Shown: positions 2,307 through 42,126 of the stretch, piece after piece | How the letters are laid out: every line of letters begins with the position of its first letter | Position numbering within the stretch: position 1 is the first letter of the stretch | Assembly (NCBI RefSeq): GCF_900176005.1 | Contig: NZ_LT838272.1 | Location: 2,313,587 to 2,377,586 of the forward strand | From: Thermanaeromonas toyohensis ToBE | GTDB lineage: Bacteria > Bacillota > DSM-521 > Neomoorellales > Neomoorellaceae | Reading direction: 5' to 3' | DNA length: 64,000 nt | Notes under the pieces: generated by a model | What the model was told of the DNA's origin: nothing | The model's database searches: none | Seen by the model: the letters and a program-made list of their open reading frames with translations, nothing else | Position numbers and translations under genes: made by a program

Positions 2307-2708
2307 TTACGATTCACCAAGGTACGAACTGCCTTCAAATCCTGCTTTAATATCCAGCTCCCCCTCGCTATTCTGCAGCACTTGTTTAAGGATTATTTGT
2401 CCGATCCCATCCCAGCACTTGTAAGCCAGGACCTCTAAAGCCGCCCTCCTAGAGCAAGCGTTTCCCTTCCTAAGTACTTTCACCATTTCCGTTATTACCG
2501 CCTCAGTATTACACAACAACAAAGCACTTATTAGGGCTTCCCTGACCAGAGGTTCCTCCTCCGTCTCAAGAGCTTTAGCGAGAACAGCCGTTGCTTCGCC
2601 CGTTCCTACGCAGGCGAGCCTGCTGATGGCGTCTAACTTGCCTTTAGCGTCAAGAGAATTCTCTAGCATCTCAATAAGCTGTGCAATATCGTTGTTTATA
2701 TCTCCCAT
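2307..2708 (-). CDS. HEAT-repeat protein at end of chemosensory operon
   Basis: A 133-residue soluble helical protein with HEAT-like repeats (KLDAISRLACVGTGEATAVL; EPLVREALISALLLCNTEAV; CSRRAALEVLAYKCWDGIGQ). Such repeats form a curved protein-binding surface. It is the last gene of the chemosensory operon, 143 bp after cheY, so it may bind an output protein of that pathway, but nothing in the sequence proves it. The ribosome site before the ATG is weak. A weak AT-rich hairpin followed by T residues near 2284-2303 may end the operon. Confidence 0.65.
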   Translation of the reverse strand: MGDINNDIAQLIEMLENSLDAKGKLDAISRLACVGTGEATAVLAKALETEEEPLVREALISALLLCNTEAVITEMVKVLRKGNACSRRAALEVLAYKCWDGIGQIILKQVLQNSEGELDIKAGFEGSSYLGES

Positions 2709-2851: not shown

Positions 2852-3217
2852 TTACACGCCCAATTTTTTCAACACTGCTAACAATTGTTCCGGACTAAAG
2901 GGCTTCACAATCCAACCACTAGCGCCAACTTTCCGCCCTTCTTCCTTTTTTTCCATAGAACTTTCAGTTGTTAACATAAGTATGGGTACAAACTTGAAGC
3001 CGGGCAACTTCCTTACACTCTGTATAAAAGTAACGCCGTCCATATTCGGCATATTGAGATCTGTAATGATGGCCTTAACTTTTAGGCCCTCCTTCAATTT
3101 ATTTAGAGCTTCAGCTCCGTCACACGCTTCGTGGACGACATGCCCCGCTTGTTTTAGAGCTGTTTTTACAGCTAACCGCATAGTGGCAGAATCGTCTACA
3201 ATTAGTACCTCTGCCAT
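2852..3217 (-). CDS. cheY: CheY-like single-domain response regulator
   Basis: A 121-residue receiver domain with the full active site: acidic pair DD at 8-9, phosphoacceptor Asp53 (ITDLNMPNMDG), Thr in MLTTES and the Lys of VKPFSPEQ. It has no output domain, so phosphorylation by the CheA of this operon would alter its binding to a motor, pilus or other target. AAAGGAGGGG sets the ATG. It follows the receptor-like gene by 30 bp. The family is certain; the target is unknown. Confidence 0.93.
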   Translation of the reverse strand: MAEVLIVDDSATMRLAVKTALKQAGHVVHEACDGAEALNKLKEGLKVKAIITDLNMPNMDGVTFIQSVRKLPGFKFVPILMLTTESSMEKKEEGRKVGASGWIVKPFSPEQLLAVLKKLGV

Positions 3218-3247: not shown

Positions 3248-4402
3248 TTAGAAGAGCTCCACGTTATCTCCAAGGCTTTCTTCATACTTCATTCCCAAGG
3301 CGGCGTAATGATTTTGTCGCTCTATGTGGGTGGTATATTTCTCCACCATGCCTACTATTGTTTTCTCTAATTTGCCTCTACTGAGAACATCGAACGCTCC
3401 CAAATCCACACGCAGTATATCCCCCAACTCCCGCAGCACCTCGAGGATATGTTGCAAACGTTGCCTAGCTATATCCTGAAACTGTCCGGCAACTATAGTA
3501 CTGTCAATATCCTGGAAGAAACCCTCAATTTCAGAAAGCAAGTTAGAAATAAGGCCTTCTACTTCATGTGCCGCACTGTTAATATCTTGGCTGGCCTTCT
3601 TTATGGTGTTATCTATCTGTTGTTTCTCACCTTCAATTTCGTCTAAGTAATCTTGTAGCTCTAAAGATACCTCTTTGACAGAACCCGCAATGTCCTCCGC
3701 AATGCGCTTCACCCTCAAAGTAGCCTCATACGCCATATCCGCCAGCCGCCTCACTTCACGCGCAACGACTTCAAAACCTCTGCCGTGCTGTCCAGCATGA
3801 GCTGCCAGAATAGAGGCGTTTAGGGCCAAAATCTTGGTCTTGTAAGCTATGCTGCTTACTTCTTCGACAAAACCGTAAAGTTCTTTCTCGGCCTTTTCTG
3901 CTATACTCCGGCAATTATCTCGGCTGATAGTCAGCCTATTAACTACTTGCTGTAATGCGGTTTCAGCTTCATGGGAAAAAGACACTAATTCTCTTATGGT
4001 TCGCCCTACTATTCCTCCGTTATCCTCAGAGGCGGAACTGTAAATCTTTCGCCCTAACTCTTGGGCGTTGGTAAGGCTTTTGAAAACCCGTTCCTGCAGC
4101 TTATCTATGCTGTGTAGTATCGATGAGAACACCTTTTCGCTCTCCGATACTAGACTTCCAATTTGCAGTTCAATTATCTCTAGAAGCTGGGATAACCCCG
4201 GTGCTTCTGAATTCTGCGGGCTGGTTTCAGTTTCCGGGTGACTCGCCGGTTCCCTGGGCTGGACCGGGCCGGCTGGAGCCTCCTCTGAGACCGCTGTTTG
4301 TCCCTGTGAAAATCCTGCCTCGGGAGAACGGCTTAGGATACGGCCCAAGACCCATCCTAAAGGAATTCCGCATAGAAAAAAACCCAATTCGTGCCACGCC
4401 AA
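3248..4402 (-). CDS. Membrane-anchored MCP-like signalling protein
   Basis: A 384-residue protein with an N-terminal membrane segment (about 5-23), a Pro/Glu-rich linker to about 70, then a long helical domain. The centre, KTKILALNASILAAHAGQHG followed by RGFEVVAREVRRLADMA, is a variant of the chemoreceptor signalling tip (usually [16 protein letters not shown]). There is no sensor domain outside the membrane. The C-terminal GQFQDIARQRLQHILEVL resembles the conserved end found in MCP-like proteins of alternative chemosensory systems. TTG start at 4402 with GGGGTG upstream. It probably docks CheA/CheW at the membrane or senses an internal cue. Confidence 0.75.
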   Translation of the reverse strand: MAWHELGFFLCGIPLGWVLGRILSRSPEAGFSQGQTAVSEEAPAGPVQPREPASHPETETSPQNSEAPGLSQLLEIIELQIGSLVSESEKVFSSILHSIDKLQERVFKSLTNAQELGRKIYSSASEDNGGIVGRTIRELVSFSHEAETALQQVVNRLTISRDNCRSIAEKAEKELYGFVEEVSSIAYKTKILALNASILAAHAGQHGRGFEVVAREVRRLADMAYEATLRVKRIAEDIAGSVKEVSLELQDYLDEIEGEKQQIDNTIKKASQDINSAAHEVEGLISNLLSEIEGFFQDIDSTIVAGQFQDIARQRLQHILEVLRELGDILRVDLGAFDVLSRGKLEKTIVGMVEKYTTHIERQNHYAALGMKYEESLGDNVELF

Positions 4403-4422: not shown

Positions 4423-4677
4423 TTAACTATTTGTAGAAAAAAGCGCAAATCTGGGATCTCCTTGTGTCGGTGGCATTATAAAGTTTATATCCTGTTTTAA
4501 GCGGACCAGCATTAATAACACCTGTATACCGGCCAAATCAATCTCTTTAAGGCCGCTTAAGTTTACAGTTTTAATTTTATGCAGATTTTCCAATACTAGG
4601 TTCCAAGCATTCCTAGCATCTTCAATAGTCAAACTTTCGTCTATTACGAGATATCCATCCCTTAGTTCAATGTTCAT
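4423..4677 (-). CDS. STAS-domain protein without the phosphorylatable serine
   Basis: An 84-residue STAS domain (fold of anti-sigma-factor antagonists such as SpoIIAA). At the usual phosphorylation loop (D-S-S-G in SpoIIAA) it reads EIDLAGIQVLLML, so the serine is replaced and kinase control through it is unlikely. STAS proteins with D-x-A-G at this place often sit beside CheA in chemosensory clusters. The gene overlaps the 3' end of cheA by 11 bp and has a good ribosome site, so the two are translationally linked. A structural or adaptor role is inferred. Confidence 0.8.
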   Translation of the reverse strand: MNIELRDGYLVIDESLTIEDARNAWNLVLENLHKIKTVNLSGLKEIDLAGIQVLLMLVRLKQDINFIMPPTQGDPRFALFSTNS

Positions 4678-7192
4678 AAGTATTCACCTCTCTAAGGCTG
4701 CGAGTGTTAAGTATCATAAGCACTCTGCCGTTGCCCCTTACCGCTGCCCCCAGGTAAAGGTTTAAACCAGCCAGCTCTCCGGTCAACTTTCTTACTACTA
4801 AGTCTTCTGTGGCCGAAATGCGGTCCGCCAAAAGACATACTCCCCCTCTTAACACGATAGCCTTTCTATCTTGGGGTCGATTTCTTGCACCCGCAACACC
4901 GAGTATCGACGCCAAATCCTGAATAATTAAGGTGCGGCCGCCCACCTTAGCGATTTTTCCCTGAGCAGAGAAACGGAGAACTTCGGTAGCCTCTACTATC
5001 CGTTCAAGGTCACCTACCGGGATGCCGATTTCTTCTCCCGACACTTCCACCACCAATACCTGGGTAGTTAAGAGATTAAGAGGCAATACTACCCTTACGG
5101 TTGTTCCTTTATCAGGGACGCTGTGCAGGTTAACATATCCACCAAGCTCCATTAAAGTATGCTGCACTGCGTCCATACCAACCCCGCGGCCCGATATTTC
5201 TGTTACGCTGTCCGCAGTACTGAAGCCGGGCATAAATATTAACTTCATGGCTTCCTGATCGCTCATTTTTTCGGCCTCCTCAAGGGAGACAAGACCTTTC
5301 TGTATAGCTTTGTATTTTACCTTGCCCACGTCAATTCCGCGGCCATCGTCTATCACATCTATAAACACCGCCGAAGCCTCTCGGGAAGCCTTTACGGTTA
5401 AACGTCCTGTACTTTCCTTTCCCTTTCTCCTCCGCTCCTCGGGCGTCTCTAATCCATGATCTAGGGCGTTGCGTATCAGGTGAAGGAGAGGTTCGTAAAG
5501 CCTCTCTACCGTTTCCCGGTCAACTTCGGTGTCCTCCCCTTGAAAAGTAAGCTCCACTTCTTTACCAAGCTTTATGGCTATATCCCGTACATAACGGGGG
5601 AACCTGGAAAAAAGCTGCCGTAATGGCGTCATTCTCAAACTGATTATAGTTTCCTGGAGTTCTCTAACCACAGCCGTCAAAGCCTGCTCTTGCTCCTTTA
5701 ACGCATAAAGGAGCTCGCGATCCCGTACCATTTTTTGGAGCCTTCTAATCCAGTATTCCAGTCCATTCTTCTGCAAAATAAGTTCTGAAGCTAAATCCAT
5801 AAGGCGGTCAATTTTGTGCTTATCTACGCGAATACTTTCGCCCTTTAAATTAAGTGACGAAGAAATAATGGTTGGAGCCTTGCCTGGACTAGTTGAAGCT
5901 GCGCAAGGTTCCTTAGATATGGCCCCGCTACCATATAGGTTAGATGGAAGCACACCTGTCTGTTCAATTTCGCTTGCTTCTCCCTGCAAATACTCCCATA
6001 TATCCCGGGCGGCTTCCCGGGGAGCCATAAGTTCAGACATAGTCTTGTGGTCTGCACTCGCATACTCCAGTAGTAAAGCTTTGAGGTCTTCCAGAAGCTG
6101 GTTTATACCCTCTTTATCCACAAAAATCTGTCTAAACAAAGCCAGGAGGAGGACCGCCTCACAGAAAAGCGATTTGCTCATACATGGAAATCTATATATC
6201 TTTAAGGCCAGTGATATAAAGGTGTCAATCCGCTGTTTTAACCCCTCATCCGGTATCTTCCAGGGGGCTCCCTCAACAAAAGCTTTTAGTCTTTGCCTCT
6301 CTTCACTTGAGGGTAGTCGGGTTTCCACTAGGTCTGGGGAAAAAAGCTCAAAGATTGAGTCAATGTATCCCAGGTTTATCTCAGCATCATCGGCCAGAAA
6401 TTCCAGTTCGAACAAAAGTGTTTCTATTCTATTAGGGGTTTGAAAGGCCAATATAAGAGGCAGATAACATTTTTCGGGATCAAACTCGTAAACAGAGGGT
6501 AACCTATCGCCCAGAACTGTAAGTGATATTACTCTTCCTCCTAGAGTTTCAATCCCTTGAAGAGCTAGCCTTAAAGGATCAAGACCTCTTTCAAAAATGC
6601 CAGTCCCACAGTTTATACCTAATACGTATATTCGCTGCTGCCCTTTTCCTCTACCCTGTTCTTTTACCCCCAATCTACCATTTTCCAACATATTCTTCAG
6701 TACAGCAAAGCGAAAGGACAGGGGCAAAAGGTATAAGCCCTCAAAGCTGTTTATTCTTTCACTTCGAGCTTCGTCTGGCTGGTTTCCCGCCGACAGGGCT
6801 CTTCCTGGAACGTTTGCCCTAACTTCCTCCAATAATCCCGTCCAGTGATCAAGCGGAGGTTCACAGCCATTTTTCGCCAAGTTTATAGCTACTTCTTTCA
6901 GGGCATCTGCACCTTTGAAAAAGAGTGTAATTAGGTCACGTGTTACATCGACCTCATTTTTTCTTAATGTTTCAAGAAGGTTTTCAAACTCGTGAGCTAT
7001 GTTTTGAAAGGTCACTGTGCCCGCTATGCCAGAAGACCCTTTTAAAGTATGGAAAGCCCGGAAGAGCTCGTGGATAAGCTCTGTATCTCGGGGGCGTTTC
7101 TCCAACTCTAAGAGCTTCTGCTCTATCGCGTCAAGGAGTTCCTGTGCTTCTTCCAGAAAGGAGGCAAGCAGCGTCCTATCTATCTGCTCCAC
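4667..7192 (-). CDS. cheA: CheA hybrid-length chemosensory histidine kinase
   Basis: An 841-residue CheA. The P1 phosphotransfer domain (about 1-105) carries His48 in FHTLKGSSG. Around 155-270 is a P2-like domain with GIFERGLDPLRLALQGIETL, a pattern seen in alternative CheA proteins, then a helical stretch with no clear match. Dimerisation helices follow from about 440 (VDKHKIDRLMDLASELILQK), then the ATPase with LIRNALDHGLE, DDGRGID and GRGVGMDAV, and a C-terminal CheW-like P5 domain. It takes phosphate from ATP and passes it to CheY and CheB. GTG start behind GGAGGTGG. It is longer than motility CheA proteins because of the central insertion. Confidence 0.95.
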   Translation of the reverse strand: MEQIDRTLLASFLEEAQELLDAIEQKLLELEKRPRDTELIHELFRAFHTLKGSSGIAGTVTFQNIAHEFENLLETLRKNEVDVTRDLITLFFKGADALKEVAINLAKNGCEPPLDHWTGLLEEVRANVPGRALSAGNQPDEARSERINSFEGLYLLPLSFRFAVLKNMLENGRLGVKEQGRGKGQQRIYVLGINCGTGIFERGLDPLRLALQGIETLGGRVISLTVLGDRLPSVYEFDPEKCYLPLILAFQTPNRIETLLFELEFLADDAEINLGYIDSIFELFSPDLVETRLPSSEERQRLKAFVEGAPWKIPDEGLKQRIDTFISLALKIYRFPCMSKSLFCEAVLLLALFRQIFVDKEGINQLLEDLKALLLEYASADHKTMSELMAPREAARDIWEYLQGEASEIEQTGVLPSNLYGSGAISKEPCAASTSPGKAPTIISSSLNLKGESIRVDKHKIDRLMDLASELILQKNGLEYWIRRLQKMVRDRELLYALKEQEQALTAVVRELQETIISLRMTPLRQLFSRFPRYVRDIAIKLGKEVELTFQGEDTEVDRETVERLYEPLLHLIRNALDHGLETPEERRRKGKESTGRLTVKASREASAVFIDVIDDGRGIDVGKVKYKAIQKGLVSLEEAEKMSDQEAMKLIFMPGFSTADSVTEISGRGVGMDAVQHTLMELGGYVNLHSVPDKGTTVRVVLPLNLLTTQVLVVEVSGEEIGIPVGDLERIVEATEVLRFSAQGKIAKVGGRTLIIQDLASILGVAGARNRPQDRKAIVLRGGVCLLADRISATEDLVVRKLTGELAGLNLYLGAAVRGNGRVLMILNTRSLREVNTYEH

Positions 7193-7213: not shown

Positions 7214-8035
7214 CTATTTCCGATAAACGAGGTGCCCACCTATGCGCTCCGGCCTGAAAACTGTAAAGCACTTGCCCACAAAATCTGCGTGACCGAAGAA
7301 AATATATCCTCCTGGCACAAGGGCTCTATATAAGTTATTTAACACTCTTTCCCTGCTTACATCGTCAAAGTATATAAGCACATTGCGGCAAAATACGACC
7401 TCGAAAGGAGCAAGATTTCCTGGTATGCCAGTCAAAAGGTTGGCCCAGGCAAAGGTAATCTTTTGTTTCAAAAAGGGCTTAACTTTATAAAACTCTCCGT
7501 CCGGCAAAAGGTAACGGCTCAAGTATTCCTTAGGTATTAAACGGATCGACCGGGTATCATACGTGCCCTCTTTGGCCTTTTCTAGCGCTAAAGTGTCAAT
7601 GTCTATCCCCACTACCCTCCAGTCGAAGTCTTCCCCCTCGAGCATTTCGTTCAAGATTATCCCCAGGGTATACGCTTCTTCTCCGGTTGCACAGCCTGCT
7701 GAAAGCACCTTAATCGTTTTGCCTAAACCGATAGAGCCTTCCTGTAACATCCTTGGTAGTACCTTCTCAGCGAAAAGCTTAAGCTGTTCGTACTCGCGGA
7801 AGAAGTACGTTTCTTTTACTGTCAAGGCGTTAATAAACTTTTGTCTTTCAAGGGCATCAAACTGTAAAATACGTAAATACCTTTCTACCTCCTCAATTTC
7901 CAGAGCTTCCATGCGCTCTCTTATCCTGCGTTCTAGGTAATACTTCTTATTCAAATCGTAACGGAGTCCTGTGGTGCGGTATACTAGGTCTGTAACTTTC
8001 CTAAAGCTTTTATTGTCAAGGATAATAGTTTTCAC
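7214..8035 (-). CDS. cheR: CheR chemoreceptor glutamate methyltransferase
   Basis: A 273-residue CheR. The N-terminal helical domain (about 1-75) is followed by the SAM-binding fold: VLSAGCATGEEAYTLGIILN binds S-adenosylmethionine and VFCRNVLIYFD is typical of the family. It adds methyl groups to receptor glutamates, setting adaptation against CheB. GTG start; the gene overlaps cheB by 4 bp, so the two are translationally coupled. No TPR extension is present. Confidence 0.95.
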   Translation of the reverse strand: MKTIILDNKSFRKVTDLVYRTTGLRYDLNKKYYLERRIRERMEALEIEEVERYLRILQFDALERQKFINALTVKETYFFREYEQLKLFAEKVLPRMLQEGSIGLGKTIKVLSAGCATGEEAYTLGIILNEMLEGEDFDWRVVGIDIDTLALEKAKEGTYDTRSIRLIPKEYLSRYLLPDGEFYKVKPFLKQKITFAWANLLTGIPGNLAPFEVVFCRNVLIYFDDVSRERVLNNLYRALVPGGYIFFGHADFVGKCFTVFRPERIGGHLVYRK

Positions 8036-9105
8036 CCCTCGTTTACCGCTTTAACTATCTCTCGTGCCACACGGTAGGAGGGAGTCACTATTGAGGCACC
8101 GCCCCTGACTATAGCTTCCCTGGGCATGCCCCATACGACTGCAGTCTCTTCAGCCTCAGCTATAGTGATACCTCCTGCGTCTTTTATCTTAACCATGGCG
8201 TTAGCACCATCGTCTCCCATGCCGGTGAGCAGTACGCCTACCAGCCGTTGCCCGCCCAGGACTTTTAAGGCGCTCTCCATAGCCACTTCCACGGAGGGTT
8301 TGTACAGCGCATCCCGAGGTTCATCGGTTAGTCTCACTCTTACTTCGTTCTTACCTAACCTGCGTTCTATTTTGAGATGGCTGTGCCCGGGTGCTACGAG
8401 TATCTTACCCGGAGTAACAGTTTCCCCATCCTGGGCTTCCGAAACTTCAAGCCGGCAGATGTTACCTAGCCTTTCGGCGAAGCCTCTGGTAAACCCTGCC
8501 GGCATATGCTGGACTACTATGATAGGGGCAGGAAGGTCGGCAGGGAGTTCGGGCAATATTTCCGTCAACGTTTTGGGGCCACCAGTAGATACTCCTATAA
8601 TTACTAGTTTCTTAAAAGGAGCTGAGACACCCGAGGGGGCGGGCTTAAAATTTGGTCCCGCCTCCCTCCTTTTTATAACTCTCGTGGCAGCTTTCATATT
8701 GGACTTCGCTGCCGCCTTAACCTTTCGCCTGATCTCATCAGCTATCTTTCTTAAGTCAGTAGAAACTATACCGCTGGGTTTTGCTATTACCTCCACTGCT
8801 CCTAGCGCCAGTGCCTCATAAGTCAATAGTTCGCCTTTTTGGGTCAAAGAAGAGATGACTACTACCGGGACAGGATTTTCATTCATTATGTACTGGAGGG
8901 CCGTCAAGCCATCTAGTTTGGGCATCTCCACGTCCATAGTGACGACATCGGGTCGTAGAGCTAGGACAAGTTTTACCGCTTCTTCTCCATCCCGGGCTGT
9001 TCCTACTACTTCTATCTCAGGATCCCGGGCTAGAATCTCCTTCAAATATTTCCTTACAAAGGCCGAATCATCTGCTATCAATACTCTGATCCGATTCCCT
9101 ACCAC
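8032..9105 (-). CDS. cheB: CheB receptor methylesterase/response regulator
   Basis: A 357-residue two-domain CheB. The receiver (about 5-125) has VLIADDSAFVRKYL and phosphoacceptor Asp in VVTMDVEMPKLDG. After a basic linker the esterase domain (about 165-355) holds the catalytic Ser in IGVSTGGPKTL, His in VVQHMPAGFT and Asp in LTGMGDDGANAM. Phosphorylation by CheA activates removal of methyl groups from receptors. GTG start. It stands between the triple-CheW gene (7 bp upstream) and cheR (4-bp overlap). Confidence 0.96.
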   Translation of the reverse strand: MVGNRIRVLIADDSAFVRKYLKEILARDPEIEVVGTARDGEEAVKLVLALRPDVVTMDVEMPKLDGLTALQYIMNENPVPVVVISSLTQKGELLTYEALALGAVEVIAKPSGIVSTDLRKIADEIRRKVKAAAKSNMKAATRVIKRREAGPNFKPAPSGVSAPFKKLVIIGVSTGGPKTLTEILPELPADLPAPIIVVQHMPAGFTRGFAERLGNICRLEVSEAQDGETVTPGKILVAPGHSHLKIERRLGKNEVRVRLTDEPRDALYKPSVEVAMESALKVLGGQRLVGVLLTGMGDDGANAMVKIKDAGGITIAEAEETAVVWGMPREAIVRGGASIVTPSYRVAREIVKAVNEG

Positions 9106-9112
9106 AATTTAT

Positions 9113-10630
9113 TTATTGAGCCCCCTCTCTTACTTCTGTTGTTTGCGTTTCCGTAGCTTCACCGTTCATGCTCTGCAAAACCCGCACTTCAAAACGGCTC
9201 AAGAGTTTATGTAGATCAAGTACTAAAGCTACCGCTCCTTCTTGTCCCAGCTTGGCTATGCCGACCAGATACTCATGGTCCAGTCCCACTGAAGTTAAGG
9301 CGCCAGTAGACTCAATGTCGGCAAGCTGTATTCTCTTTACTTCTTTGACTGCATCAACAATAAAGCCGGTTAGGCTGTTTCCGATGTCTACCACAATAAT
9401 CCTGTTCTGGTCTCCCCTGGCAAAACTACCCATTTCCAAGCGCTTGCGAAGGTCTATCACCGGAATAATCTTGCCCCTAATGTTTATTACCCCTTCTACA
9501 AAGGAAGGAGCCTGGGGTACGCGCGTTATTTCCGGCACATTAAGAATCTCGCGCACAGAGGTTATCTCGGTGATAAAGTCCTGCTCGCCAAGCCTAAAGA
9601 GGATATACTGACCCTCACTGTTTTTGTCTGCCAAGGTTTCTTCCCTGACCTCACGATCCGCGTGGCCTATCCCGGACTTCATTACTTCCAGTCCCATGAG
9701 GCAAGTAGGGTCCAGAATGTAGGTAAGGCGTTTTTTCTTACCTGTGTCTATTTTACAGATCCCCTTAACCTTTAGCCTTGCATCAACTTGAAGGTACTCC
9801 GGCATCTCTTCAATGGTATTTGCGTCAATACTTAGCACCTCAGAGACACTGTCTACCACAATCCCCAGAAGCCCCCGTTCACCATGTAAGACAATAACCC
9901 TGCTCCTGCTGCGGTCGGCTTCTTCCTCCTTTAACCCCATAAGTCTTGCCAAGTTTATCACCGGAAGCAATTGGTCCCTCAACACCATGATCCCCTCGGC
10001 GTATTGAGGGAAGGTAGGGACGCTGCTTAACACTTCAGGGTAGGCCACTATTTCCTGGACATAGGCAATGTCCAGGCCGTATTCTTCCTCCCCAACGCCA
10101 AAGGTAACAAACTGCCGCTCTACTGCGCCAGTTGCATGTTCGGACCGCTCTCCGTATTTTTTGTCCCCGTATTCTTGCAACCTGATTTCCTCTTTTCCTA
10201 CATGGAAACTTAGGCCCTGGCCGAGAAGTTTGTGGGGGTCAAGGAGTATAATAACGCCGTTAGAAGAGCGCAGGAGCCCGGAGAAATATACTTGATTGGG
10301 GAGGTCCTGGGGGAGGGCTTCGATCTCCTCAGTGTCTACAGTAACTACCCCTGTTACCGCGTCAACCACATAACCAACCCGATAGTCACCCAGGGTTATT
10401 ATTAAGACCCTGGTGTCTTCGTCATGTTCTTTATCAGGCAGGCCGAACTTCTTCCTACCGCTGACTACTGAGATAATAAGCCCGCGGAGATTGGCCAGAC
10501 CCTCAACGTAATGGGGGGCCTGTGGAACCCTGGTTATGTGCGGAAGTCGTATGGTTTCCTGCACCGCTTGTACAGGTACCCCGTATTGTTCCCCAGCGAG
10601 GCGAAACAGTACATACTGGGCTGAAGGCAT
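9113..10630 (-). CDS. Triple-domain CheW scaffold protein
   Basis: A 505-residue protein made of three CheW domains in a row: about 1-145 (YVLFRLAGEQYGVPVQAVQE), 168-315 (FVTFGVGEEEYGLDIAYVQE) and 340-480 (YILFRLGEQDFITEITSVRE), each with a following GLANLRG-, GIMVLRD- or GVINIRG-type motif. Normal CheW is about 150 residues and joins receptors to CheA; a triple form could cross-link several receptors or kinases in one array. The linkers are charged. It sits directly between mcp and cheB. Confidence 0.92.
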   Translation of the reverse strand: MPSAQYVLFRLAGEQYGVPVQAVQETIRLPHITRVPQAPHYVEGLANLRGLIISVVSGRKKFGLPDKEHDEDTRVLIITLGDYRVGYVVDAVTGVVTVDTEEIEALPQDLPNQVYFSGLLRSSNGVIILLDPHKLLGQGLSFHVGKEEIRLQEYGDKKYGERSEHATGAVERQFVTFGVGEEEYGLDIAYVQEIVAYPEVLSSVPTFPQYAEGIMVLRDQLLPVINLARLMGLKEEEADRSRSRVIVLHGERGLLGIVVDSVSEVLSIDANTIEEMPEYLQVDARLKVKGICKIDTGKKKRLTYILDPTCLMGLEVMKSGIGHADREVREETLADKNSEGQYILFRLGEQDFITEITSVREILNVPEITRVPQAPSFVEGVINIRGKIIPVIDLRKRLEMGSFARGDQNRIIVVDIGNSLTGFIVDAVKEVKRIQLADIESTGALTSVGLDHEYLVGIAKLGQEGAVALVLDLHKLLSRFEVRVLQSMNGEATETQTTEVREGAQ

Positions 10631-10660: not shown

Positions 10661-12586
10661 TTACAAGTTCTGAAGCTCGTTGGCCATGGCGGCAATCTCC
10701 TCAATTGCCCGCGTAAGTTCTTCCATGCCCTGGGCCTGCTGGCGAGCAGCACTGGCCGCCTGTTCGCAGGCGGAAGCAGCTTCCTGGGCGGCGCCAGCAA
10801 TATTCTCTACCGCCTTCTTGGCCTCCTCGGCTGCTTTTGCAGCCTGTGCGGCATTATCGTCAATCTCCTTGGCACCCTGGACTATTGTCGCTATGTCTTG
10901 AGCCATTTTCTCAAGTTGCCCGACAACGGTCTTCGCATCTTCTACTTCGCGCTCGGCTTCGGATACTACAGTTTCTACTTCCCTCATGACGAGGGCGATA
11001 CGGTCCTGGATGGAGCGTACCAGGTCTTTTATCTGGTCCGCATTGCGTGCGCTCTCCTGCGCTAAATTACGAATATCCGAGGCTACCACTGCAAAGCCTT
11101 TCCCGAATTCCCCGGAACGAGCTGCTTCCACAGCGCCGGTTACTGCCAGCATGTTTGTCTGAATACCAACAGTGACTATGCTGTCCACTATCTTGTCTAT
11201 TTTCCTGGCTTCCTGTTCCAGGTCCCTCATAGCGGCTGCATTTTCCTGAGCTGTCTTCAAGGCTTGGTTTATACCATATATCAGACTCTCTACAAGTTCG
11301 CGGTTTTGCTTTAACAGTTCTTGCATAGCTTCTACCTGGCTAAGGCTTTTAACGGCAGCCTGTCTTATCCCTTCCATCTGCCGCGAAACCTGTATGGCCA
11401 CTGCGAGCGATTTCTCGGCAGCCTGTGACTGTATTTGGGCCCCCTTGCTTATCTGCTCAATGGCGGTCATAATCTGTCTAGCTGCTGTATTAGCTTCTTC
11501 CAGTGCAGCAGAGATCTCCTCAGCGGACGCCGCTACGCTTTCCGAAGCTTTAGAGGCGTCCTGAGCGCTTTTGACTGCATCCGCCTGGGCTAAAAGGTCA
11601 TTGACTGCGGCACCGATATCGCCCAGAGCCTTAACCTGTTGTTCTATGGAAGTGAGGGCTTCGGCTACTGCACTGCTCTGTTCTTCGGCCGCTTGGGCTA
11701 TTTGGGAGGCTCCATTTTGAAACTCCTGGGTGGCCCGGGTTACTTCTTGGGAAAGGGTTAATACTGTCTCCGAACCTTCACGCACAGTAACCATATCCTG
11801 TGCTATCTTATCTAGCCCTGCCGATACCTCACGACCTTTATCGGCCTCTCCCCTAGCTACTTCTGCCGCCTTATTTATTGCGGCGGCTATCTCTTTTACC
11901 CGCGACTGGATGCCACTCACTACCCCGCGAATGTCCTCCGCGGCTTTCTCAGAGGTTTCGGCCAGAGTGCGTACTTCATCCGCTACTACTGCAAATCCCT
12001 TGCCGTAGTCGCCGGCCCGGGCAGCTTCAATGGCGGCATTCAGGGCCAGAAGGTTAGTCTGGTCTGCTATCCTAACTACCGTACGGACAATGCTTCCAAT
12101 TTCCTCAGCTTGTTTCTCCAACTCCACCACTGACCGGGCGGACTCTTCATTCCGTGCTGCCGCGGCTATAACTCCGTCCACTAATTTTTGTATGCTTTGC
12201 GAAGTCTCGCCAGACAGTGCCTGCAAAGCAATTACTTTGTTCAATGATTCTTGAGCCCGGGTTACGCTTACCTGTGCATTCCGGTTGATTTGCTCGATAC
12301 CCGTCAGGGACTCCTGGGTGGCACTAGAAGCTTCTTCCGCGCCTTTACCTATCTGTTCCATAGCAGCTTGAAGCTCGTTAATTGCTGAAGAAGCCTCCTC
12401 TACTCCTGCCGAGAGCTGCTCTGTGGCGCTTGCGATCCTTTCGGCCAGCTGCTGTCTCTTGGCAATGAGCCTTGCCTGGCGCCGTTGGGCCTCCAGCTTT
12501 TTGGCTGTCTCATTGAGTCGCTTGTTTTCCGCCTCTTTCGCGCTGGCCTCCTGTGAAACTTCCGGCAACGCAAGTTTTTTCTCCAT
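10661..12586 (-). CDS. Soluble chemoreceptor with two tandem signalling tips
   Basis: A 641-residue, Ala/Glu/Gln-rich, almost wholly coiled-coil protein without membrane segments or a recognisable sensor domain. It has two chemoreceptor hairpin tips: near 175-210 ([20 protein letters not shown]) and near 475-510 ([20 protein letters not shown]), 300 residues apart. Ordinary receptors have one. The first tip is canonical; the second departs at LNAAIE (VTGAVE). This suggests a cytoplasmic receptor that can nucleate two CheA/CheW contacts, matching the triple-CheW partner encoded next. GGGGGA precedes the ATG. It is the first clear gene after the riboswitch. Confidence 0.92.
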
Positions 12587-12628
12587 GAATAGTTCCCCCT
12601 ATCAGATAAGTTTTTAGATGTTAAGCAG

Positions 12629-13000
12629 TTACTGCTGCAGTGCCCACACCCTTTGAATTTTATGTGGCCCCTGCAGCCTTCGGTTTCTAGCCCACTTGGA
12701 TAAAGTACTCAGACCACCGGATGAATACAGCCAAGGAAAATCTGATGCCAACCTTACCCTTTCCCCGTTCTGCTCAAAATCGACCGATATTGAGGCACAC
12801 AAACGCCTACCGCAGATTCTGGAAAAACCGCGGATTGTATTGATCCACCCGTTACCTATGTGAAGATCGGTTAATTTCAGGAGCCGGTCGAGGGTAACTG
12901 AAGTAGGACAGCAAAGGCAAAAGGCAGGAAGAAATCCAACAAGCGGGCAAAGGAAGAAATCGTTTATATAAAAGGTGGGAAAAATAGGACGTGAGCACAA
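12629..13000 (-). CDS. Unrecognised reading frame between riboswitch and mcp
   Basis: An open frame of up to 123 codons ends 42 bp before mcp. The last 85 residues look protein-like (RLLKLTDLHIGNGWINTIRG; ISVDFEQNGERVRLASDFPW; SKWARNRRLQGPHKIQRVWA), but the first 40, rich in Phe, Cys and Leu, do not, and no good start or ribosome site is visible. I recognise no family. It could be a real small protein starting within the frame, a remnant, or leader RNA of the chemosensory operon. Confidence 0.3.
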   Translation of the reverse strand: MCSRPIFPTFYINDFFLCPLVGFLPAFCLCCPTSVTLDRLLKLTDLHIGNGWINTIRGFSRICGRRLCASISVDFEQNGERVRLASDFPWLYSSGGLSTLSKWARNRRLQGPHKIQRVWALQQ

Positions 13001-13073
13001 GGCAGGAATTATTGGAAGCTAATATCCTATAACTTCCATAAATGCCTTTAACTAATAAATATGGTACATATAT

Positions 13074-13087
13074 CCCCCCCCCCCCCC
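13074..13087. repeat. C14 homopolymer tract
   Basis: Fourteen consecutive C on the plus strand (G14 in the chemosensory leader RNA), about 90 nt downstream of the riboswitch terminator. Such tracts slip during replication and are error-prone in sequencing. On the minus strand it falls inside a 97-codon frame with no recognisable product. Confidence 0.9.
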
Positions 13088-13171
13088 AGAGGATATTCAT
13101 GGTATTAATACCTCTATATTCCATTGTTTCCGGTCCCCATATCATTTAATCACTACACCCCCTGTAAACAC

Positions 13172-13201
13172 AAAAAAAGGTGACCTGGCTACCCGGTCAC
13201 C
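13172..13201 (-). terminator. Intrinsic terminator of the c-di-GMP riboswitch
   Basis: On the minus strand GGTGACC pairs with GGTCACC around an inner GGGTAGCC segment and is followed at once by seven T. It begins 8 nt after the aptamer's closing stem, the usual place for an expression platform. The aptamer state would decide whether transcription passes into the chemosensory operon leader. Confidence 0.85.
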
Positions 13202-13209
13202 TCAATACC

Positions 13210-13306
13210 CCCTCACGGCAGCCTGGCAGCCATAATCCTTTACCTGGATCTTAGGCCCATGGCTTTGCGCCCCGCCCTTTCGAGCTGTTTGCCTTTATCG
13301 TGAAGG
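13210..13306 (-). promoter_or_regulatory. Cyclic-di-GMP-I (GEMM-I) riboswitch aptamer
   Basis: The minus strand shows the GEMM-I consensus in order: GGCAAAC (13293-13287), a GAAA tetraloop, GGGGCGCAAAGCC, GGGCCTAA, then ATGGCTGCC and GGCTGCCG. The closing stem P1 is CCTTCACG (13306-13299) with CGTGAGGG (13217-13210), eight pairs with one G-U. A terminator follows. The aptamer binds the second messenger cyclic di-GMP. The next well-supported gene downstream is mcp of the chemosensory operon, about 590 nt away. I found no convincing promoter upstream. Confidence 0.9.
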
Positions 13307-13820: not shown

Positions 13821-13849
13821 TTGACACGGGCTAGAAGGGAAACTATAAT
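13821..13849 (+). promoter_or_regulatory. Consensus sigma-A promoter of the padR operon
   Basis: TTGACA (13821-13826), exactly 17 bp, then TATAAT (13844-13849): a perfect housekeeping promoter 48 bp before the padR start. The palindrome at 13862-13880 covers the region just after the start site, so a repressor there would block it. From 13307 to 13590 I see nothing certain. Confidence 0.85.
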
Positions 13850-13896: not shown

Positions 13897-14262
13897 ATGT
13901 GTCAATGTCATGAGCACGGTTCTCGCTTTCCCCTTATTCAGCCTTGCCTACTTTTACTTCTATATGAAAAACCAACCCATGGATATGAGCTCATAGAAAA
14001 GTTAATGGAATTAGGATTCGACCAATGTCTAGATGCTACCACTGTCTACCGTAATCTGCGCCGTATGGAGGAAGAAGGACTGGTTACTTCCCAATGGAAT
14101 ACACAAGGGCCTGGCCCGGCCAGGCGCCTATATCAACTAACTCCTGAAGGCGAAGATCTGCTTCATTCTTGGGCTTCCGCCATTCGCCGAAAGAAAGAAA
14201 CCCTAGAAAAGTTCCTGAATAAGTACAACCAGCATTTCCCGCCGAAAGGAGGTGAAGTTTAA
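13897..14262 (+). CDS. PadR-family transcriptional repressor
   Basis: A 121-residue PadR regulator: winged helix with LLLLYEKPTHGYELIEKLME and TVYRNLRRMEEEGLVTSQWN, then YQLTPEGEDLL and a C-terminal dimerisation helix. The N-terminus is MCQCHEHG, a Cys/His cluster not usual in PadR and possibly metal binding. It is the first gene of an operon with a Cys-rich small protein and two half-permeases, behind its own operator. It likely represses this transport operon until a ligand, perhaps a metal or metalloid, appears. Confidence 0.88.
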   Translation: MCQCHEHGSRFPLIQPCLLLLLYEKPTHGYELIEKLMELGFDQCLDATTVYRNLRRMEEEGLVTSQWNTQGPGPARRLYQLTPEGEDLLHSWASAIRRKKETLEKFLNKYNQHFPPKGGEV

Positions 14263-41519: not shown

Positions 41520-42126
41520 TTCTCCCTTACCGCTACAGTGGGTGGCGACCTGCCAGGTAAACGTTGTGGCTTAGGTCCAGCAGGTTTTCCCGGCAACCTA
41601 CCGCCCGTCGCCGCAAGCGGCGGTTCCCCTTTAAAGGTTGCCCTGTAACGTCGCCGTATACAGAGCTGGATCACCACTTAGCACACACTTTAATCCCTGG
41701 CAGGCCTTACCAGCAAAGCGGTAAACAGCCTAGGAGTTTTCCTCCACAGCACCCACCCTTCCCTAGCCTCTTTTGCAGTTGTGGTTTCAACAGCCAGTTT
41801 CCACCACAACCACTCAAGGCAGGCTACGCTGCAGCCAGCACCCTTTGTACCGACTGCAGGTTTATACCCCAAGCCATAGTACTCATCCCTAGTGTAGACT
41901 TTCCCACGCACTTGGGTCTCCGCGGAAGGAGGGTCAACGCCTACATGCCTTTGTAGATCGCCCCCCTTCCTTAACTCCCAGCACCAGCCCCCGACTGGGC
42001 GTCGGCAGCCAGCACCAGGAACTTCATCGCTGTGCCCTTGACGGATTTTTAGGCCCGTCTTCAGGAAGGGCAGCACTGACTAGGATACTGCGCCACCCAC
42101 TAAACTGGTAGGCCTAAGCCCTGGTA
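41520..42126 (-). ncRNA. ole: OLE RNA (ornate large extremophilic RNA)
   Basis: This GC-rich segment between ispA and oapA has no good gene but many RNA stems. GTGGGTGGCG (42100-42091) pairs exactly with CGCCACCCAC (41547-41538), closing a 563-nt domain. Inside are GTTGTGG/CCACAAC (41820-41814 with 41784-41778) and a CGCCG-CGGCG tetraloop hairpin (41622-41609). From the predicted start to the 3' side of the closing stem is about 600 nt, the known size of OLE RNA, which forms a membrane ribonucleoprotein with OapA and serves stress and alcohol tolerance. The 3' end is not fixed. Confidence 0.85.

Follow-up and report, generated by a model that had tools for sequence, protein, structure and literature searches.

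Two candidate gates, a c-di-GMP riboswitch and a poly-G leader ORF, upstream of a chemosensory operon in Thermanaeromonas toyohensis

In Clostridioides difficile, the flgB leader carries a c-di-GMP riboswitch followed by an invertible flagellar switch, and Rho cuts the transcript that is made in the OFF phase (PMC7446863). The same organism has phase-variable c-di-GMP phosphodiesterases, PdcB and PdcC, which are controlled by site-specific inversion upstream of their genes (PMC9286219). In the Bacillus cereus group the c-di-GMP-I riboswitch Bc1 lies upstream of mcpE and is reported to turn reporters on (PMC11218506), and in Campylobacter and Neisseria the simple-sequence-repeat phase-variable genes contain long G/C homopolymers, changes in the length of which switch expression (PMC6321876, PMC5953494).

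Here we analyse a leader and operon of Thermanaeromonas toyohensis ToBE that resemble each of these systems in part. They lie in a stretch of 64,000 nucleotides (contig NZ_LT838272.1, positions 2,313,587 to 2,377,586), referred to below as the window, and all positions given for the locus are those of the window; the same stretch holds an OLE RNA at 41526-42112 on the minus strand (full-length match, 497 bits). As in the flgB leader, transcription of a long motility-operon leader would first cross a c-di-GMP riboswitch and then a phase-variable element. In C. difficile, however, RecV inverts that element and the operon is flagellar, whereas here the candidate is slippage of a poly-G tract in a small ORF and the operon is chemosensory. 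The flgB leader is the nearest known logic to that of our locus, in which both the phase variation and the action of Rho are putative. Bc1 likewise combines a c-di-GMP-I riboswitch and a terminator, with a long expression platform, in a chemoreceptor leader, although it precedes an MCP gene and is reported to be ON, whereas our riboswitch precedes a nine-gene array operon and is predicted to be OFF. The homopolymers of Campylobacter and Neisseria serve mostly surface determinants of host-associated bacteria, unlike the c-di-GMP and chemosensory genes of this Moorella-type lineage, and the stochastic control of c-di-GMP breakdown seen with PdcB and PdcC would be exerted here by poly-G in or before HD-GYP genes rather than by inversion. 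A literature search found no paper joining Moorella, c-di-GMP and riboswitch. On balance, we favour a reading with two gates in series, in which attenuation by c-di-GMP would be followed by slipped-strand variation of a leader ORF.

The aptamer, of the c-di-GMP-I (GEMM-I) class, occupies 13303-13214 on the minus strand and matches RF01051 over its full length (model positions 1-87 of 87) with 79.6 bits and an E value of 5e-14, against a gathering score of 35 bits. After a spacing of 10 nt, an intrinsic terminator on the same strand (13203-13171) forms the expression platform, with a hairpin (GAGGTGACC-GGGTAGCC-AGGTCACCTT) of −16.9 kcal/mol followed by a T-run. The upstream neighbour is a small regulator-like gene that starts at 13897 and is divergent from the leader; the leader thus begins in a divergent intergenic region and needs its own promoter. 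On the plus strand, a perfect TTGACA-17-TATAAT promoter-like site is found at 13821-13849, before the divergent regulator gene.

Downstream, nine genes follow one another closely on the minus strand (12586 to 2307): neighbours are at most 30 nt apart or overlap by no more than that, except for 143 nt before the HEAT gene. The first encodes MCP1 (10661..12586), a soluble receptor of 641 aa with two MCP signalling domains (PF00015 in two stretches, 2.7e-58), and is followed by a triple CheW of 505 aa (9113..10630; PF01584 in three stretches, 4.8e-106), CheB (8032..9105), CheR (7214..8035), CheA with Hpt, dimerisation, HATPase and CheW domains (4667..7192), a STAS-like protein (4423..4677), a second receptor, MCP2 (3248..4402; PF00015, 1.7e-20), a CheY-like response regulator (2852..3217) and a HEAT-repeat protein (2307..2708; PF13646, 8.5e-07). 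CheB, CheR, CheA and CheY were assigned by Pfam, and the set for a CheA-based array (receptor, CheW, CheA with Hpt, CheB, CheR and CheY) is complete. The original prediction, of a GEMM-I aptamer and terminator before a same-strand operon of nine genes, is borne out by the full-length Rfam match, the T-run hairpin and the tight spacing; its domain calls, including the double MCP, the triple CheW and the HEAT protein, were recovered with Pfam, apart from STAS, which scores just under the cut-off (PF13466, 27.0 against 29.2 bits). The description of the array as unusual is not supported: the order MCP-CheW3-CheB-(HEAT)-CheR-CheY/CheA is common to Proteobacteria, Desulfobacterota, Chloroflexi, Fibrobacteres and Actinobacteria, and since MCP1-CheW3-CheB recurs in so many phyla the array is of a widespread type. 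An Rfam scan of five non-Firmicutes array loci (L076, L077, L078, L082 and L084) found no riboswitch 5' of the operon and, on this sample, the riboswitch appears to be an addition made in Firmicutes.

Eight c-di-GMP-I aptamers are present in the genome (3.33 Mb, one contig). Three precede chemosensory genes, namely this operon, a paralogous MCP1-CheW3-CheB-HEAT-CheR-CheY-CheA operon and an MCP-CheW-CheA operon (by eye); three others precede a flagellar basal-body operon, a type IV pilus gene and an HD-GYP gene (by eye), and the remaining two a FapA gene (Pfam) and one sensor-like gene (by eye). In the paralogous operon, 0.38 Mb away, the aptamer lies about 135 nt before the start of an MCP that is 54% identical to MCP1. 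This operon adjoins a FapA gene, stressosome-like STAS, kinase and PP2C genes and a GGDEF-like gene (L059/L060, G000 C1:1930500-1954000), and the region holds three c-di-GMP-I aptamers within about 7.5 kb.

The arrangement of aptamer and receptor recurs at seven further Firmicutes loci, the paralogue and L061, L063, L065, L066, L074 and L075, as expected if c-di-GMP controls the whole array operon, which had been proposed from this locus. Aptamer and terminator are found 5' of MCP1 homologues in the relatives G010, G008 and G012, the last with two such operons. Two Firmicutes at greater distance share the arrangement. In Thermosediminibacter litoriperuensis the aptamer is upstream of an MCP1 that is 88% identical, and an IS110-like transposase gene, partly masked, lies between the riboswitch terminator and mcp1 (L074:8453-9601). 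In PH28_bin88, with an MCP1 of 64% identity, the order is aptamer, small gene, HD-GYP, mcp. Two relatives, G003 and G014, are without the aptamer and have an HD-GYP gene directly 5' of mcp1 (by Pfam in G003, by sequence reading only in G014). Because eight loci carry the riboswitch and two have a phosphodiesterase in its place, a functional tie of the operon to c-di-GMP is hard to dismiss on comparative grounds, and we regard it as very probable that the riboswitch acts on the operon. Two observations were made beside this series. A shortened second c-di-GMP-I-like half-aptamer is visible by eye just 5' of mcp1 in L075 (about 9800-9865), and two exact TGTCGAA (Spo0A-box-like) sites each are found 5' of the aptamers in L059 and L075, where about 0.03 and 0.015 are expected; control of the window leader by Spo0A was set aside, as the window has no exact TGTCGAA box.

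The 0.6-kb gap between terminator and mcp1, with a doubtful frame, had been named as the weak point of the locus, and a lost gene in it was suggested as the former target of the riboswitch. The gap is real, and the frame holds a feature that the suggestion had not mentioned, a run of 14 G (G14, 13087-13074, minus strand) inside a small leader ORF on the same strand (12852..13145) of 97 aa, or of 90 aa if read from the ATG at 13124. Adding or losing a single G would end the 90-aa frame after 25 or 24 codons, respectively, which makes the run a candidate slipped-strand contingency tract. Positions 12884..13086 (minus strand) align at 66% identity with the leader of a riboswitch operon in the relative G006, and 13308-13172 align with the same leader at 82%. 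That leader precedes a different operon, with a HATPase protein followed by STAS-, PP2C-, STAS- and FapA-like genes; the N-terminal half of the HATPase protein is PilZ-like by eye, without a Pfam match there. Since two operons share a homologous leader, the gap is better read as leader DNA with a poly-G small ORF than as an obvious coding remnant. The lost gene has weak support at most and was rejected on this alignment and because the 97-aa frame, one of two overlapping frames (the other of 123 aa), gave no Pfam match; what support it has comes from some relatives, where HD-GYP genes stand between leader and receptor. A mobile element was also rejected, as the gap sequence, riboswitch matches aside, is unrepeated elsewhere in the genome.

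Only four runs of at least 10 G occur in the genome, and each lies at a c-di-GMP locus. One is in this leader and another in a small ORF that precedes the gene of a membrane HD-GYP protein (L144). The other two sit at the 3' ends of PocR-GAF-GAF-HD-GYP genes (L146:4611-4622 and L147:5910-5921), whose reading frame, if continued, encodes a hydrophobic tail, GGGGTL(I/M)ALLGEILFLLRR. The genome has 17 HD_5 matches, and HD-GYP genes and riboswitch leaders together make up, by a rough estimate, 1-2% of it. By our own count, 23 of the 27 internal tracts of at least 12 in the family fall either at the 3' end of an HD-GYP gene or in a small ORF that precedes an HD-GYP, HATPase/STAS or MCP1 operon; the scan of the class took in 22 genomes, the count leaves out tracts at contig ends, and among the 23 is one small ORF whose HD-GYP gene seems lost. 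Relatives have the design of small ORF and poly-G before riboswitch/HD-GYP/HATPase or MCP1 operons too, and in most of them the ORF is upstream of the riboswitch rather than downstream. Poly-G as a feature of the whole order was rejected, because the tracts of another family (G019, G020) are mostly in unrelated genes or in poor sequence, with the exception of one tract (G019 C26) that sits in the same riboswitch/HD-GYP/HATPase leader. The fourteen runs of at least 12 in G019 (L153-L166) lie mostly in unrelated genes, such as corrinoid methyltransferase-like and ABC transporter genes, and some may be assembly artefacts.

Tract length and frame vary between species: orthologous leaders of the HATPase/STAS operon have 14, 11, 19, 18, 16, 13 and 14 G, with an inconstant remainder modulo 3, and this difference of 11-19 G is between species only. 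The small ORFs retain a start codon with an upstream Shine-Dalgarno-like sequence, and one of their three phases is open for at least 50 codons while another ends within 35. At the 3' ends of seven HD-GYP orthologues, reading after the tract is in three different frames, a variation between relatives that would switch the hydrophobic tail. We consider a regulatory effect of the poly-G ORF plausible, though at somewhat less than even chances. The main rival is a plain OFF riboswitch, in which the 0.6-kb stretch and its tract would be no more than a long leader that plays no part in regulation. The riboswitches of the paralogue and of L063, and the leader in G008, are without a tract, and the second gate is therefore inessential to the design; codon periodicity after the tract was also absent in the best-sampled set (six orthologues; 27/25/24 variable columns), and coding constraint there was rejected on this result. 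Against a passive leader speak the rarity of long poly-G runs and their concentration at c-di-GMP loci in the family, and the conserved start and Shine-Dalgarno-like sequence of the small ORFs; we consider it rather unlikely.

Rho-loading sites are C-rich and G-poor, and the leader has such a stretch at 12979-12880 on the minus strand (34 C, 14 G), the richest 100 nt, which is a candidate Rho-loading region and would be under translation of the small ORF only in the sequenced phase. The 150 nt 3' of most tracts are C-rich and G-poor, with a median skew of 0.39 against a background standard deviation of 0.19; in the window the enrichment is moderate, and the excess of C over G in the 150 nt that directly follow the tract ranks at the 84th percentile. 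The genome encodes rho (648 bits). Terminator-like sites in the gap (13170-12590) are in no excess over the shuffle expectation.

The polarity of the riboswitch is predicted from the complementarity of the terminator loop, GGTAGCC (13193-13187), to the 3' strand of aptamer P1, GGCTGCC (13223-13217), which suggests an OFF switch at high c-di-GMP. In the window, the competing duplex of P1 strand and loop has −22.5 kcal/mol against −16.9 kcal/mol for the hairpin, and across the loci the duplexes range from about −16 to −22 kcal/mol and the terminators with which they compete from −13 to −21 kcal/mol. Locus by locus, the duplexes hardly beat shuffled platforms (p 0.05-0.42; borderline in the window, p=0.054), L074 excepted (p<0.002). 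The pair is GGTTGCC/GGTAACC in L061, L063, L065 and L066 and CTGCCGGG/CCCGGCAG in L074, so that the pairing covaries with compensatory changes across three lineages, and these are a better argument for the antiterminator than the statistics of single duplexes. The weakness of those statistics would leave room for an ON switch, by which c-di-GMP would raise expression of the array, as Bc1 activated downstream reporters in B. subtilis (PMC11218506); but in the window P1 forms no part of the terminator, and its 3' strand is complementary to the terminator loop, a pairing that shows compensatory changes from lineage to lineage, which makes an ON switch improbable. Least probable is a riboswitch whose control is confined to the leader ORF or to a lost gene, with mcp1 transcribed from a separate promoter within the gap. 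Although the gap is 0.6 kb long with a single weak 9/12 promoter-like site (13168-13141) and PH28_bin88 has HD-GYP genes between riboswitch and mcp1, promoter-like sites in 13170-12590 are in no excess over the shuffle expectation, the aptamer is just 135-175 nt or so from the MCP start in the paralogue and in G012a, and the linkage is conserved at eight loci.

In the two-gate reading that we favour, bound c-di-GMP would steady the aptamer so that the terminator forms and transcription stops, whereas at low c-di-GMP the P1 3' strand would pair with the terminator loop as an antiterminator and the chemosensory operon would be transcribed. Slippage at G14 would then shift the frame of the small leader ORF. 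Ribosomes would translate as far as 12852 in the present phase; in either of the alternative phases they would halt before 12979-12880, a stretch that may then load Rho and end transcription before mcp1. The net result would be a decision on building this array that is both signal-driven and stochastic.

The gap, formerly the weak point of the locus, is its most novel part. If the reading is correct, a graded second-messenger input through the riboswitch and a heritable coin toss through the poly-G length together decide on a second sensory array, an AND-gate design arrived at independently of the DNA inversion of C. difficile and in environmental anaerobes, not a pathogen. The coin toss would also be placed on the enzymes that degrade c-di-GMP. 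More tentatively still, Moorella-type Firmicutes may use poly-G tracts specifically to add a level of chance to c-di-GMP signalling. Small leader ORFs that vary in phase would then work in series with c-di-GMP riboswitches as gates to chemosensory, HATPase/STAS and HD-GYP operons; the tracts found at HD-GYP 3' ends would switch the hydrophobic tail of the phosphodiesterase.
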